A stretch of 43,191 bases of DNA from Candidatus Sumerlaeia bacterium (GTDB lineage: Bacteria > Sumerlaeota > Sumerlaeia > SLMS01): NCBI GenBank assembly GCA_020831705.1, contig JAFIGB010000067.1, forward strand, positions 1 to 43,191, written 5' to 3'. Shown piece by piece: positions 3,023 to 43,191 of the stretch; the stretch's first letter is position 1, and each line of letters starts with the position of its first letter. The notes under the pieces are model-generated. The model searched no databases and was not told where the DNA came from. It worked only from the letters and a program-made list of their open reading frames with translations. Position numbers and translations under genes: made by a program.

Positions 3023-3466
3023 GTGATTTTTCGTTCCCTGATTCTCTTCGCGACGGTCTTTGCCGTGGCTTCCTGTACAATGGTGCAAACTTCAGAGACG
3101 GCACCCGAACCGACTCCAGCCCCCGAACCCCCTCCCCCCGTGGTTGTGCAGGTGGAAACTGATCCCCTTATTGCCCAGGATCTGGTGGGCAAGGTGGCCA
3201 TCCGTAATTACCAGTGGGATGAGGAGAATCATCCCTCGATTTCCTTTGTGCTGGAAAATCTTACGGCCACGGAATCCTTTGAATTGGAACTTTCCTCGGA
3301 GTTTTATGATCATGCCGGGGAGCCTCGGTTTCGCACTCCTTGGACGCGGTTCGTTGTGGAACCGGGGAAGCGCCACCACTATTACGCTCAGGCCGATCGG
3401 CGGGGGGTGATCCAGGGAAGGGTCTTTCTTCGTCAGGTCATTGAAGGGGTCGACACCACCGAATGA
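3023..3466 (+). CDS. Putative lipoprotein, YcfL/DUF1425-like
   Basis: Signal peptide with lipobox-like ASC; Pro/Glu-rich linker; short C-terminal domain (VAIRNYQWDEENHPSISFVLENLT…). Confidence 0.6.
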   Translation: MIFRSLILFATVFAVASCTMVQTSETAPEPTPAPEPPPPVVVQVETDPLIAQDLVGKVAIRNYQWDEENHPSISFVLENLTATESFELELSSEFYDHAGEPRFRTPWTRFVVEPGKRHHYYAQADRRGVIQGRVFLRQVIEGVDTTE

Positions 3467-4443
3467 TCTACTTTTTGAAACGGCTTCCCCTGGCCTTCCT
3501 GACGTTGCTGCTGGTGGCGTCGGCGTGTTTTTTTCTGACCAAGGCGGCGGGCGAGGAGGCGGCCTTCGGGGAGCGCAATCCGCCCCCGGAAGTGCGTGCG
3601 GAAATTGAACGGAAGTGGGGTCTTGATCGGCCCCTCCATGAGCAATACCTGCTGCACATGAGCAAATTGCTCGTTCTCGATTCGATGGAATCGCGCAAGC
3701 AGCGCAATCGGACGCTTCGCGATGTGCTCAAGTCCCACCTTCCCCCTTCCCTGCGGCTGGGTGCCCGCGCCCTCATTCTTGCCATCGTTCTCGGGGTTCC
3801 CGTCGGGGTTTTTTGCGCCATCTATCACAATCGGATTCCGGACAATGGAGGGACGGTGTTGGCGCTGGTTGGTGTGTCCGTTCCCAATTTTGTACTCGCC
3901 AGTTTTGCGATCTATTTCCTCGCCCGCCGCTGGGAGTTGTTCCCTGCCATTGGGTGGGACACGCCGACGCCGCCCTGGCAACTCGGCGAGGGGATGCCGG
4001 CATTTATGCATGGCATCTGGGATGAGATTTGGCGGACGCGATTGTGGGTTCCTGCGGCGTGTCTGGCGGCGTTTCCCTTTGCGGCGATTATGCGCCTGAC
4101 ACGTTCCTCGATGCTCGATGCCCTGCGGCAGGATTACGTCCGCACGGCGAGGGCGAAGGGGGTGGCGGCCTGGCGGGTCATTGTTGTTCATGCCCTGCGT
4201 AATGCCCTGACCCCCGTAGTAACCTACATCGGCCCGGTGACGGCGGGCGTGCTGACGGGGTCGCTGGTAGTGGAGACGATTTTTGCCCTGCCCGGTCTGG
4301 GGCGGTTCTTTGTGGAATCGGTCAATAACCGTGACATGCCCCTTATTATGGGGCTGACGGTATTTTATTCGGCGCTGCTGGTTTCCATGAACCTGATCGT
4401 GGATGCGATATACCCGATCCTGAACCCGCGTCTGAGAAAATGA
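3463..4443 (+). CDS. ABC transporter permease, OppB/DppB-like
   Basis: Binding-protein-dependent permease signature (RLTRSSMLDALRQDYVRTARAKGVAAWRVIVVHALRNALTPVVTYIG). ATGA overlap with the preceding gene. Confidence 0.9.
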   Translation: MIYFLKRLPLAFLTLLLVASACFFLTKAAGEEAAFGERNPPPEVRAEIERKWGLDRPLHEQYLLHMSKLLVLDSMESRKQRNRTLRDVLKSHLPPSLRLGARALILAIVLGVPVGVFCAIYHNRIPDNGGTVLALVGVSVPNFVLASFAIYFLARRWELFPAIGWDTPTPPWQLGEGMPAFMHGIWDEIWRTRLWVPAACLAAFPFAAIMRLTRSSMLDALRQDYVRTARAKGVAAWRVIVVHALRNALTPVVTYIGPVTAGVLTGSLVVETIFALPGLGRFFVESVNNRDMPLIMGLTVFYSALLVSMNLIVDAIYPILNPRLRK

Positions 4444-38277: not shown

Positions 38278-38364
38278 GCCGTCGTGGCGGAACTGGCAGA
38301 CGCGCACGGTTCAGGTCCGTGTGGGGGCAACCCCGTGGAGGTTCGACTCCTCTCGACGGCACCA
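38278..38364 (+). tRNA. tRNA-Leu (anticodon CAG) with encoded CCA
   Basis: GCCGTCG…CGACGGC-A-CCA acceptor stem; anticodon arm ACGG-TTCAGGT-CCGT; long class II variable arm; GGTTCGACTCC T arm. Confidence 0.93.
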
Positions 38365-38390
38365 TTCACTAAAATCAATGGTTTCAACCC

Positions 38391-38418
38391 TTTTGCCTCC
38401 CGATCATGGGAGGCAAAA
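38391..38418. repeat. Perfect inverted repeat just downstream of the tRNA (TTTTGCCTCCC-GATCAT-GGGAGGCAAAA)
   Basis: 11-bp perfect arms, 6-nt spacer. Confidence 0.85.
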
Positions 38419-38642
38419 GTGCTTTGTGGGGTTCCTTTTTGCTGGTCGAGACGGGAGGGGGCAGGTCACAATTTGACACGAAAGTGTTGCGTGATGGGGA
38501 TGGGGAAATTCCAAGAATCAACACAATCGATACATTAAAGGATGGTATTACCCCAACCTCGCGAGAACTGAGAAATGCGATCCGTATTCGCCAGCAAAGC
38601 AATCCCGGAGAACACCTCCTCTTAATACCAAAACCCAGATAA
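38406..38642 (+). pseudogene. Possible remnant of a Rhs-type toxin tip
   Basis: Frame open to GEIPRINTIDTLKDGITPTSRELRNAIRIRQQSNPGEHLLLIPKPR*, immediately before an immunity-like gene; no domain recognised. Confidence 0.3.
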
Positions 38643-38655
38643 TAGGATGCAGCCA

Positions 38656-39201
38656 ATGCCCAACCGAATTTTCCACTTCGCTGCAAGACGTGATCTGGCG
38701 GAGGTGATTCAAGTCGTGGAGTCCAACCATAGTTTGAAGTATGTCGTTTACGGAATGTCTGATCATCCGGAATATGATGTATATAACTCGTTGCTTGACT
38801 ATCCCATGCTTGGGACCGCCGAAGGGGATCAGTATGTTGCATGCACGATTATGAACATATTTCCCCGTGAGGCTGAAATTAAGCTGCGCACTGTCCCTCA
38901 ACGTCGTGGCGGTGTAAAGTATCTAATTGATCCAATGGAGAATCCGTGCTCAATGATCATCAGATTGGGTGGCGTCTATGAGGAAGGTGTCTTGATTCAT
39001 GGAGAGACGGCGACTACTTATTCCACTGATGACCTGGGCACGAAGCTCTTTCATGCCTTTGCGCGCCAGATTCGGAAGCGATTCCGGAAGGTCCACGAAT
39101 TCTGGGTGGGCAAGGAAGCGGAAGAACTCTACCGAAAAGGTTGGCGCCTCACCCAGTCGAAGCATCGTTCGACTGATTATGATCTCAAATTCCCGGAATG
39201 A
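38656..39201 (+). CDS. Hypothetical protein, candidate immunity protein
   Basis: 181-aa ORF (MPNRIFHFAARRDLAEVIQVVESNHSLKYVVYGMSDHPEYDVYNSLLDYP…) placed just before the first Rhs tip. Function inferred from context only. Confidence 0.5.
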   Translation: MPNRIFHFAARRDLAEVIQVVESNHSLKYVVYGMSDHPEYDVYNSLLDYPMLGTAEGDQYVACTIMNIFPREAEIKLRTVPQRRGGVKYLIDPMENPCSMIIRLGGVYEEGVLIHGETATTYSTDDLGTKLFHAFARQIRKRFRKVHEFWVGKEAEELYRKGWRLTQSKHRSTDYDLKFPE

Positions 39202-39263
39202 CTGGAAGAATTGTCTGGGGTTACGATAAGTTGCAGACCTATTAAGTTCTAATGAATCTTTAG

Positions 39264-40322
39264 TCCGAAGTTGTATATCCATATCCCGATTCCCTCATCG
39301 GCAACGACATCCTGTGGCAGTCCATGCGCTGGGATGCGGAGGTGGAACTGTATTACCTGCGCAACCGTTGGTACGACCCCTACCTCGGCCGGTTCCTTCA
39401 GCGTGATCCAATCGGCTTTTGGGGTGACCCACTTAATACAGGCAACCCATATACGTATGTAGGAAATAACCCGTGGACTTACGTGGATCCCTGGGGGCTG
39501 AGCGGGATCAAATCAAATCAGCCCCGTTGGAATACTGATCAAGGGTACGGATTTTTTCGAAATACATGGGACTTCCTAGGTGGATCAGTGCAAACTGTGG
39601 ATCGTGTAGCCCAATCTACTTTTGCTGGTATAGGATCAGCAATAAACTATGTCGCGGAACCGGTTAAAGTGTATGTGGTTAGACCCTTCACCACTCCCGC
39701 ATCAGATTATGTAAATAATCATTATTTTGATAGTACGTACGAGAATGTCACCAAGCATTATTCGATTACTTCACAACTTGTAGGGACCGGGGAAGAATTT
39801 GATGAAAGCAGTCGCTGGGTTCGTCACACCATGGATACCATAGGTGAAGAACTCGGAACAGACGCCGTGTTAATGTTGGGTACTGGTATGGCAGGCAGGG
39901 GGGCATCATCGATCCGCCATGCTCCTGAAGGCAGGGGCACGGGTGCTGGGGCAGGGGCAGGCGGTAGAATCAATTCCACTTGCACTGCCAGCTTCTCCCC
40001 ATTAAACACTAGTCAGAAGAGGTTTTTGAGAAAGCAAGCGCGAGAGAGGTGGAAGCAGGTCTCCGGGCAATATGCATCAACTAGTGGTCTTCAAATTCAT
40101 CATCGAATTCCATTAGAGTGGGCACATATATTTCCCAAAAGTCCTCCGAACCGTATTTCGAATCTGGTTGGTGTACGTAAATCAACCCACACTCAAGTAT
40201 CCAGAGAATGGGCACAGTGGAAGGCAGGACTGGGTGGACGTCAGCCAACCCCTTCAGAAATTATGACGGAAGCATTTAGGATTGACGGACTATTCCATGA
40301 TCAATGGTTCTTTCCCAAGTGA
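39264..40322 (+). CDS. Headless Rhs tip: RHS-associated core end plus HNH-like toxin domain
   Basis: MRWDAEVELYYLRNRWYDPYLGRFLQRDPIGFWGDPLNTGNPYTYVGNNPWTYVDPWGL core; C-terminus GLQIHHRIPLEWAHIFPKSPPNRISNLVGVRKSTHTQVSREWAQWKAG (HNH/Endo VII-like). Frame opens after an in-frame TAG at about 39261; first ATG is 39324, inside the core. Confidence 0.8.
   Translation, partial: SEVVYPYPDSLIGNDILWQSMRWDAEVELYYLRNRWYDPYLGRFLQRDPIGFWGDPLNTGNPYTYVGNNPWTYVDPWGLSGIKSNQPRWNTDQGYGFFRNTWDFLGGSVQTVDRVAQSTFAGIGSAINYVAEPVKVYVVRPFTTPASDYVNNHYFDSTYENVTKHYSITSQLVGTGEEFDESSRWVRHTMDTIGEELGTDAVLMLGTGMAGRGASSIRHAPEGRGTGAGAGAGGRINSTCTASFSPLNTSQKRFLRKQARERWKQVSGQYASTSGLQIHHRIPLEWAHIFPKSPPNRISNLVGVRKSTHTQVSREWAQWKAGLGGRQPTPSEIMTEAFRIDGLFHDQWFFPK
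39288..39416 (+). repeat. Rhs core direct repeat, copy 1
   Basis: Aligns without gaps to 41218..41346; about 4 mismatches in the first ~100 nt. Confidence 0.9.
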
Positions 40323-40332
40323 GGAGACAAGT

Positions 40333-40869
40333 ATGAACTATACATTCGAAGAAATACGTGATTTTCTCGCCTCCCTGCAACCATCAACTGGTCAAGAACC
40401 TTCATCACACCTGACTGAAAGCGACCTCAGATCGGTGGAGCAAAGTTTGGGGCTGATGATTCCCAGGGAAATCAAAGACTGGCTAATGGTGATCAATGGT
40501 TCATTCGTAGGTAGCCAAGTATTTCTTGGAATTGGTACTTCAAATAGCTTCCTTGACCTGGTCCCTGTTCTGCAGGACTACCCAGAGTGGAAAAGTCGCG
40601 CATGGATACCAGTCGCCTCGGATGGATGTGGCAATTACTATGTTGCATCCGGAATAAATTCGTTATGTCCTGTAGTCTTTGTCGATACAGCCTTCGATTT
40701 TTCGAAGCCTGCCTATGTTGTATCGACAGCATTACGACGGTTTCTATACGAGTTTATCAAGTCGGAGTTTTTTGATACTGAATGGCCTTTTGATCGTAAA
40801 TACATATTGTTGCACGATCCGGGATTAATAGATGCAACAGGTTTGGGGCCACTTCCTTGGGAAGGATAA
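40333..40869 (+). CDS. SMI1/KNR4 (SUKH) family immunity protein
   Basis: LTESDLRSVEQSLGLMIPREIKDWLMVINGSFVG…WIPVASDGCGNYYV pattern; starts 10 bp after the toxin stop with GAGGAG as RBS. Confidence 0.8.
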   Translation: MNYTFEEIRDFLASLQPSTGQEPSSHLTESDLRSVEQSLGLMIPREIKDWLMVINGSFVGSQVFLGIGTSNSFLDLVPVLQDYPEWKSRAWIPVASDGCGNYYVASGINSLCPVVFVDTAFDFSKPAYVVSTALRRFLYEFIKSEFFDTEWPFDRKYILLHDPGLIDATGLGPLPWEG

Positions 40870-40920
40870 ATGGGATGCCATTGCACCACGCCATCATTGC
40901 ATTGCTTACAAACTCTATGA

Positions 40921-42123
40921 AATTGACATTCAATAACCCGAACCACGCCTTCAGGGCTCGACGTCTCCGCGGAATGGACAGCCACACCTGACGACATCTT
41001 CCTCCTCCGCCGCAAGGGCAACCCGAGCGGATGCGGCGCCATCAACCCACCCGAATTCGGCCCCGCCGGATTTACATCCAGCAACTACTATCTCCTGCGC
41101 GACGCATCCTACAATGTCACCACCGCACTCAATGCCCGCAGTGAAGTTGTCGAGCGCTACGACTACGACGACTTCGGCGTCCCCATCTTCCTCAATCCTG
41201 ATGGGGCGCCCCGCACGGATTCCCTGATCGGCAACGACATCCTGTGGCAGTCCATGCGCTGGGATGCGGAGGTGGAACTGTATTACATGCGCAACCGGTG
41301 GTACGACCCGTACCTCGGCCGGTTCCTCACCCGCGATCCCATTGGAGCCTTCGGCGACCCGCTCAACTTCGGCAATGCCTATACATTCCCTGCAAATAAT
41401 CCGTGGAGCTATCGGGATCCGTGGGGGTTGATGGGGACTGGTTGCGCGACCGTGGTCACATGGAGGAACGTTGCAATATCCATTGATAATCTTGAATGGC
41501 ATCACATGTTCCCAAAGCAACTATTCAATCATCCGGGGATCTCCCCCAGCATTCGCAAATTCTTTAACGATCCGGAATGGGGGTACATTATGCCTAAAGA
41601 CATGCATCGTGGGAAGAACATTGGCCTTCATCAAGCCGGCTGGAACAAGGATTGGGAGGATTGGTTAACAAGAACGCAGGGAAGAGTAGGGGCGGGAAAC
41701 ATTACTCTCGATATGGTGCGTACTCAGAGGAATCACATGGTGGGCCTCCCGCAATATAGTGCCTTCTTTGAGAAAAAACCGTCTGTATTTCGAGCGCATG
41801 TTTCCTATACCGAATGGAGGAGTGGTGGCCGAAAGAAGGCTATTTTGGCCTTTGGGAGAACTGCCGGGAGAGTAGGTGGAAGGGCTATTCCTATCGTCGG
41901 CGTTCTCCTGATCGCCGACGATGCGATGGCAGGCTTGGCTGTTGGCGGCGTATCAGAGGCAATCTACCGTGGATCGGGAGCAGCCGATATTCAGGGCTTG
42001 ATCAACTCGGCGATTGAATCCGCTAGAACTCCTGTTGACTCACACCTCTCCCGATTTGGGAAATGGCTGCTGGGAGGTGAGAACCTGAGGAAGTCGCGCA
42101 TTGATGATTGCCTGACCGATTAG
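40921..42123 (+). CDS. Headless Rhs tip: longer RHS core fragment plus HNH-like domain and hydrophobic C-terminal tail
   Basis: Open frame TTPSGLDVSAEWTATPDDIFLLRRKGNPSGCGAINPPEFGPAGFTSSNYYLLRDASYNVTTALNARSEVVERYDYDDFGVPIFLNPDGAPRTDSLIGNDILWQSMRWDAEVELYYMRNRWYDPYLGRFLTRDPIG continues into NLEWHHMFPKQLF…H…GWNKDWEDWL. The first ATG in this frame is 41254; start coordinate is approximate. Confidence 0.8.
41218..41346 (+). repeat. Rhs core direct repeat, copy 2
   Basis: Aligned to 39288..39416. Confidence 0.9.
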
Positions 42124-42160
42124 TTGACAAGGCCAGAAGTTCAGTGGAAAGGAATGAAAG

Positions 42161-42883
42161 TTGAACCAAATACTCTACTTCGTAATCGGTGACGCGGACT
42201 ATACAGGTCTCTTGAGTGTCAACATGGTCCACAGGAACTTGAAGATGTCTCTCTTTCACGGGGAGCATAAGTGGTATACAGGTGAAGGCAAGGAGTTGTG
42301 GATAGGGTCATACACAAGAATAGACTCACTGGCACCTGATTTCTGCGGAACGAGTATCAACCTCTATTCGGAGGAATTGGTCAAGCGATTGGACCATGTT
42401 GTTTGGAACGATTTTATTGCTGTTCCCAAGATGCGGTGGAAACGGGCGGATTTCCCTTTGAACGCGTATGAGATGGAGCGGGTCGTCAACGGGACGGGGA
42501 GCAATGCCATCGGTTATCTTCAAAACTTTCGTGACTCCAAGAATCCGCCGGACAAGCGTTACTTCTTCCTCGATGTACTGGTCGCACCCAGAGTGTTCAT
42601 GCCTGCGGAACGGGATGAAATATGGGAGCTGAATGAATTTCCTGACCAGGTAATTCGCGTGGGTCGATACGCGGTCACGAAGTACGCCGAGGAATTCAAG
42701 AAGTTGAAGACTATTTGGGTCAACGGCGGGCTGCTGATGACACCCGAGGTCTTCGACATTCTCGGCCCTTCTATTGACCGACGCTACTACAAGATTTTTG
42801 AGTATACGTTCGAGATTAGTGAGGGGCATGCCGTGCTGCAGAATACAAGGGAGCATTCAGGAGCCATGTTCGGTATGTTTTAA
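42161..42883 (+). CDS. Candidate immunity protein, Imm11/DUF1629-like in size and layout
   Basis: 240-aa ORF directly after toxin 2, TTG start with AAAGGA upstream; MNQILYFVIGDADYTGLLSVNMVHRNLKMSLFHGEHKW…. Family call is tentative. Confidence 0.55.
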   Translation: MNQILYFVIGDADYTGLLSVNMVHRNLKMSLFHGEHKWYTGEGKELWIGSYTRIDSLAPDFCGTSINLYSEELVKRLDHVVWNDFIAVPKMRWKRADFPLNAYEMERVVNGTGSNAIGYLQNFRDSKNPPDKRYFFLDVLVAPRVFMPAERDEIWELNEFPDQVIRVGRYAVTKYAEEFKKLKTIWVNGGLLMTPEVFDILGPSIDRRYYKIFEYTFEISEGHAVLQNTREHSGAMFGMF

Positions 42884-42955
42884 GGTGGTAGGATCGGCGA
42901 ATGGAAGTCATTTTGGTCTCTCACGGAGGCACAAAGGCACGGAGGTTTGTGGACC

Positions 42956-43191
42956 ATGAATCAGACCGTCCTCCAGCTTCTCGTCTTAATGATGGTGGCC
43001 CTTCCAGCCTGGGGTTTGCTCCACCTTGTCTGCTGGTATCGTGGGAGGAAGATGTTGGGGTCGATATCGGTGATGCCCCTCGATCTGACCGCATTGTTGA
43101 TATCCCTGCCGCTCGCCTGGTATCTCAATAGCATGGTTCCCTGGTTGGGGACTATTCTCCTATCATTGGCGCATGTACTCGTGATCGTCAT
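42956..43191 (+). CDS. Small membrane protein, runs off the right edge
   Basis: ATG 42956 with GGAGG at 42941; MNQTVLQLLVLMMVALPAWGLLHLVCWYRGRKMLGSISVMPLDLTALLISLPLAWYLNSMVPWLGTILLSLAHVLVIV, open to the edge. The track does not list this frame. Confidence 0.6.
   Translation, partial: MNQTVLQLLVLMMVALPAWGLLHLVCWYRGRKMLGSISVMPLDLTALLISLPLAWYLNSMVPWLGTILLSLAHVLVIV

Follow-up and report, generated by a model that had tools for sequence, protein, structure and literature searches.

The right-hand end of this stretch holds a row of Rhs toxin ends that lack the front of their genes and lie behind a leucine tRNA gene, which raises the question of how they came to be there and what they are kept for. 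The analysed window (43,191 bp) is the entire contig C497 of the metagenome-assembled genome (MAG) G000 (4.65 Mb, 502 contigs, 84.6% complete). All three Rhs toxin/immunity cassettes lie on the + strand downstream of tRNA-Leu(CAG), a gene already named in the preliminary description and borne out by ARAGORN. The results indicate that the region is very probably an orphan rhs-CT/immunity array formed by sequential C-terminal displacement. The kind is already known and this example looks ordinary; it comes from a lineage that has been little studied, and it bears a neat scar of recombination. Contig C497 stops at 43191, so that the right limit of the array may lie beyond it. The features are collected in Table 1.

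Table 1. Features of the array and of its tRNA-side flank, in coordinates of the window.
Feature	Position	Strand	Evidence or remark
tRNA-Leu (CAG), intact	38278-38364	+	ARAGORN; orthologues 85-94% identical in 12 relatives
13-bp perfect hairpin directly 3′ of the tRNA	38390-38419	+	strong hairpins follow the tRNA in most relatives
Cassette 0 toxin remnant, 3′ part of an Rhs-type toxin	38406-38642	+	last ~60 codons homologous to the MKLM6_RS22615 toxin end
Cassette 0 immunity gene Imm0	38647-39201	+	unnamed family; homologues on plasmids
Core fragment 1	39288-39507	+	TIGR03696 1.2e-15
Toxin 1, C-terminal tip with HHRIPLEWAH motif	39508-40322	+	no profile match
Immunity gene 1, SUKH superfamily (SMI1_KNR4)	40333-40869	+	PF09346 1.2e-9
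Core fragment 2, about 160 codons of Rhs core	40954-41437	+	TIGR03696 1.1e-13
Toxin 2, EWHHMFPK motif	41438-42123	+	weak DUF2380/SitA6-type match
Candidate immunity gene 2	42161-42883	+	TTG start, AAGGA upstream, no family match
Membrane-protein ORF, still open at the contig end	42947-43191	+	no homologue in 14 relatives

In both core-bearing tips, a C-terminal Rhs core fragment reaching to a DPxGL motif is fused in frame to a variable tip; the TIGR03696 matches stop at DPWGL, and beyond this motif the sequences diverge completely. The tip frames carry neither a translation start of their own nor export signals. In cassette 1 (39288-40869), the frame of toxin 1 is continuous with core fragment 1, with stops ahead of the core and no start before it. 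In cassette 2 (40954-42883), the frame is open from 40927 with no ATG, GTG or TTG before 41254, and it holds about 260 bp of extra upstream Rhs core, more than was seen earlier. The first ATG of each tip (39324 and 41254) falls inside the core and is not preceded by a ribosome-site-like sequence. These open frames confirm the earlier statement that neither tip has a full Rhs shell or a start outside the core. A small gene follows every tip, recognised as a SUKH gene behind tip 1, by homologous pairing in cassette 0 and by position behind tip 2.

Immunity gene 1, preceded by a Shine-Dalgarno-like AGGAG, scored 39.2 bits against PF09346 (curated cut-off 25.4), which places it in the SUKH superfamily and confirms the SUKH-like immunity gene proposed after toxin 1. 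The accompanying proposal of an Rhs tip with an HNH-like toxin held for the core, recovered by TIGR03696, but not for the toxin: Pfam profiles gave nothing even at E 10, and none of the HNH models in NCBIfam matched. The HHRIPLEWAH motif is suggestive of the HNH type as far as its residues go; assignment as an HNH/EndoVII nuclease toxin is not established, the resemblance being one of motif and not of profile. For the second tip, described as carrying a different HNH-like domain, the Rhs core again stood, but toxin 2 gave just a weak DUF2380/SitA6-like match (0.023-0.41) below the cut-offs (14.6 bits vs 26.3 for PF09533; 10.2 bits vs 85.75 for TIGR02269), and membership of the DUF2380/SitA6 type is likewise not established.

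Wider searches added little to these assignments. Plasmid or phage tblastn with toxins 1 and 2, the SUKH gene and the last immunity gene returned nothing useful, PDB sequence searches gave no relevant match, scans of genome contigs found no relative of toxin 1 or tip 2, and scans of viral contigs found none of toxin 2 or the last immunity gene. The toxin part of tip 2 had no homologue in the class, though related cores were found. AlphaFold models of the toxins, made without an alignment, reached pLDDT values of 52 (toxin 1) and 34, and were too poor to be used. No homologue of toxins 1 and 2 or of the last, candidate immunity gene turned up in any collection searched, and the functions given to these three therefore rest on position. 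The ORF at the contig end could belong to the array, perhaps as a further immunity gene, or to the host flank.

The possible toxin remnant and the immunity candidate of the preliminary description proved to be a genuine pair. The remnant is a 78-codon frame whose 5′ part and core are missing, and its tail matched the end region of the Rhs protein MKLM6_RS22615 of Methylomonas koyamae plasmid pLM6 (BLASTP 3e-6; local score 72, where the best of 2000 shuffles reached 52), the aligned segments being INTIDTLKDGITPTSREL in the 78-codon frame and INTVTTRADGITPVAREI in the pLM6 Rhs toxin end. Imm0 (184 codons) begins 5 bp past this frame and is homologous to the gene directly downstream of MKLM6_RS22615, which lies 13 bp after the 900-aa Rhs protein within a tandem rhs array that includes a much longer rhs gene, so the pairing is reproduced on pLM6. 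Cassette 0 is a toxin without its front next to a whole Imm0. Another Imm0 homologue, on a Hymenobacter canadensis plasmid, lies in a plasmid-borne immunity cluster that holds further genes of immunity type (Imm53, colicin immunity, DUF4262) and in which no toxin is annotated.

The cores of tips 1 and 2 form a direct repeat of 220 bp with 80% identity (39288-39507 vs 41218-41437); the shared core followed by complete divergence was thus described correctly, but its length, put at ~129 bp, was not. Within core fragment 1, positions 39288-39395 (108 bp) are nearly identical to fragment 2 and positions 39396-39507 have diverged, and the 108-bp stretch is probably the one first measured as ~129 bp. 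Third codon positions differ in 3 of 36 codons across the first half and in 23 of 37 across the second (Fisher 1.5e-6; no permutation out of 2000 was as extreme). Because the rate change is at third positions, protein selection alone is not expected to cause so sharp a shift. On the sequence, the simplest reading is that the core of tip 1 is a recombinant, its 5′ part coming from core A as in tip 2 and its tip-side part from another core brought in with toxin 1; later gene conversion between the two tips could also have produced the mosaic. Such a scar is expected where an incoming tip recombines into a core and the previous tip is moved downstream (Jackson 2009, PMC2935791; Kirchberger 2017). 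The dN/dS between the whole core fragments is about 0.11-0.15, indicating purifying selection, and the cores therefore diverged while they were translated parts of working genes. GC3 is host-like in core fragment 2 (0.77; host genes 0.71-0.75) and lower in the toxins and the SUKH gene (0.41-0.54). Both full-length and fragmentary Rhs proteins from the same order rank as the best relatives of the cores (53-64% identity); of the plasmid matches, the best ones listed reach 38% identity at most.

We infer the following order of displacement events. An ancestral rhs gene with core A would have ended in toxin 2. A module of toxin 1 and the SUKH gene would have recombined into core A near the present 39396, displacing the toxin 2 end downstream, and a third module (toxin 0 and Imm0) would next have displaced toxin 1. 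The rhs head and most of toxin 0 would have been lost later, leaving the array about 100 bp from tRNA-Leu. Sequential displacement is supported by three known or putative toxin/immunity pairs in the same direction, startless cores, the mosaic core and the truncated toxin 0; one point against it is that the head from which these tips would have come was not found. Published orphan modules likewise show startless tips, short cores and paired immunity genes (PMC2935791; PMC3150448; PMC3967940). At least six same-class relatives have tips in tandem whose core repeats are nearly identical (G006:C267, G024:C2, G025:C229, G018:C607, G010:C180 and G011:C65), and orphan Rhs tip arrays appear common in this class. 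The absent start codons, the mosaic core and the paired immunity genes, with the like architecture in relatives, uphold the displaced orphan rhs-CT/immunity modules of the preliminary description.

Other Rhs pieces in G000 lie on contigs C49, C328 and C485; all are fragments, and none is complete in the bin. C49 (9940-10821) carries an Rhs tip whose core belongs to a different subfamily and which has membrane-protein genes behind it; the contig ends within the core, hence the head of this tip is missing from the bin. C328 (about 3460-3660) holds a short YD-repeat scrap, and C485 (13620-14498) a 292-codon Rhs shell fragment without a tip; both lie near small immunity- or membrane-like genes. 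No shell related to the Rhs gene of the same-order relative G007, which encodes 2695 aa with a Hint domain and is followed by an Imm26 gene, was found in G000. The TEN_YD-shell profile was insensitive and missed the known G007 gene, and its negative result was not used.

What the array does now can be read in two ways. The preliminary description saw in it a reserve of silent tips able to recombine onto a complete Rhs gene at another place; the reading weighed here is that such loading happens regularly and within the same genome. Tip reloading is demonstrated in Salmonella (PMC3967940), the full-length Rhs of G007 has a related core, and the core fragments remain open frames; yet the core search of the 84.6%-complete MAG yielded neither an rhs head sharing core A nor a second locus with this core, the remaining Rhs pieces of G000 are fragmentary with a different core subfamily on C49, and the near-identical stretch common to the tips is just 108 bp long, whereas the Salmonella example has 522 bp at 95%. 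The missing head is weak evidence because MAG contigs from this class frequently break off within the repeated cores (at four other loci and in C49 of G000 itself). We consider such a store rather unlikely. The alternative is that the tips are dead weight and that the array is kept as its immunity genes protect against neighbours' toxins, which we regard as a plausible though tentative reading. Toxin 0 is truncated beside an intact Imm0, and ribosome-site-like sequences precede two of the three immunity genes and none of the tips; precedents are the immunity arrays of V. cholerae (PMC5361080), orphan CdiI expression and the orphan-tip-only repertoire of Gilliamella apicola (PMC8125069). Against it, toxins 1 and 2 are full, undecayed open frames, which is unexpected after long neutrality (they had no homologues for a rate test). 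Since toxin 0 is truncated, Imm0 intact and no head found, an immunity archive or relic is at least as likely as an active donor store. An internal promoter scan found fewer sites than in shuffles. By analogy with E. coli EC93, the immunity proteins would be produced, and would protect against kin toxins, with the toxins themselves silent. The tips could be reactivated if recombination joined them to an rhs head, and the Salmonella case suggests by analogy two ways in which they might be expressed, either once fused to a head or as a toxin-antitoxin pair that uses internal starts.

How the array reached its present place also has more than one candidate answer. The tRNA insertion site proposed earlier is upheld as adjacency but not as mechanism: the tRNA is intact, a terminator-like hairpin, probably the tRNA's own terminator, stands between it and the array, and neither a second copy of the tRNA 3′ end nor an integrase gene was seen on contig C497. 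Arrival through integrase-mediated insertion at the tRNA-Leu 3′ end is consistent with a fall in GC from 0.61 to 0.48 immediately past the tRNA, with Rhs near this tRNA in none of the 12 relatives compared, and with the same-order relative G010, where a tyrosine recombinase ORF lies 8 bp beyond the 3′ end of the orthologous tRNA-Leu (region C64, 6827-8381) and that end recurs in copies on another contig (C147), an apparent integration target. The hairpin usual in most relatives, the lack of a second attachment-like copy or visible integrase on the contig, and a left boundary that cuts a toxin gene and is no element end speak against this route, and we hold it to be doubtful. For a tRNA-targeted integrative element in the window, neither an integrase gene nor a second repeat of the tRNA 3′ end was seen on the contig; the right border lies beyond the contig, and an element could still exist. 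An array from elsewhere, joined to tRNA-Leu by the assembler, would fit the habit of contigs in this class of ending inside Rhs core repeats and the loss of nadB/tRNA-Leu synteny in relatives. The junction at about 38.4 kb, however, is not a repeat in the contig, core 2 is host-like in composition with its nearest relatives in the same order, and G024 has a second headless array near a tRNA inside a 364-kb contig, making such a chimera highly improbable.

The tRNA-Leu flank itself may vary among relatives. In the same-family genome G003 (C103, 5324-8557), a 1077-codon frame with NB-ARC and TPR domains lies just past tRNA-Leu, which suggests variable content at this flank. No tRNA adjoins nadB in the relatives checked, synteny around nadB and tRNA-Leu is not kept, and an empty site sought through nadB synteny and the last ORF was not found, neither being conserved in place. 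The G024 array (C2, 2558-8916) is a headless three-tip Rhs array that starts about 150 bp past a tRNA with an unusual CTA anticodon (called Pyl by ARAGORN), in the same orientation. That the flank past a tRNA 3′ end serves as a landing place for headless displaced tip/immunity modules, giving stand-alone immunity islands where Rhs delivery is lost, seems to us a very remote prospect; no rule can be claimed for tRNA-side headless arrays, because the window and the G024 contig are just two unrelated cases.

Enterobacteria and bee-gut bacteria are where orphan Rhs tip arrays and C-terminal displacement have been studied best, and the present array adds an uncultivated class to them. It also offers a clear scar of the recombination behind tip displacement, links the unnamed immunity family Imm0 to Rhs tips, and contributes at least two toxin domains that fall in no recognised family. 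Orphan rhs-CT/rhsI modules are known in Salmonella, E. coli and Dickeya (Jackson 2009, PMC2935791; Poole 2011, PMC3150448; Koskiniemi 2014, PMC3967940). The window shares with them tandem startless tips with short cores, a known or candidate immunity gene after each tip and a conserved core with a foreign tip; it differs in that no head was found upstream or elsewhere, the near-identical core is just 108 bp, the first cassette is truncated, and the array lies beside a tRNA in an uncultivated lineage. In Gilliamella apicola (PMC8125069), too, orphan toxin domains and immunity genes are seen with no full-length Rhs, but there the absence of a head comes from many isolate genomes and here from one incomplete MAG. 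In pLM6, MKLM6_RS22615 is a full tip on a 900-aa Rhs protein whereas the window retains only the last part of the toxin; MKLM6_RS22615 and RS22610 represent the toxin-end and immunity families of cassette 0, likewise in a tandem Rhs array. Compared with the V. cholerae T6SS immunity arrays (PMC5361080), tips 1 and 2 keep full toxin frames and there is no adjacent secretion cluster, but both share sequential displacement, older immunity genes that are kept and remnants of effector 3′ ends.
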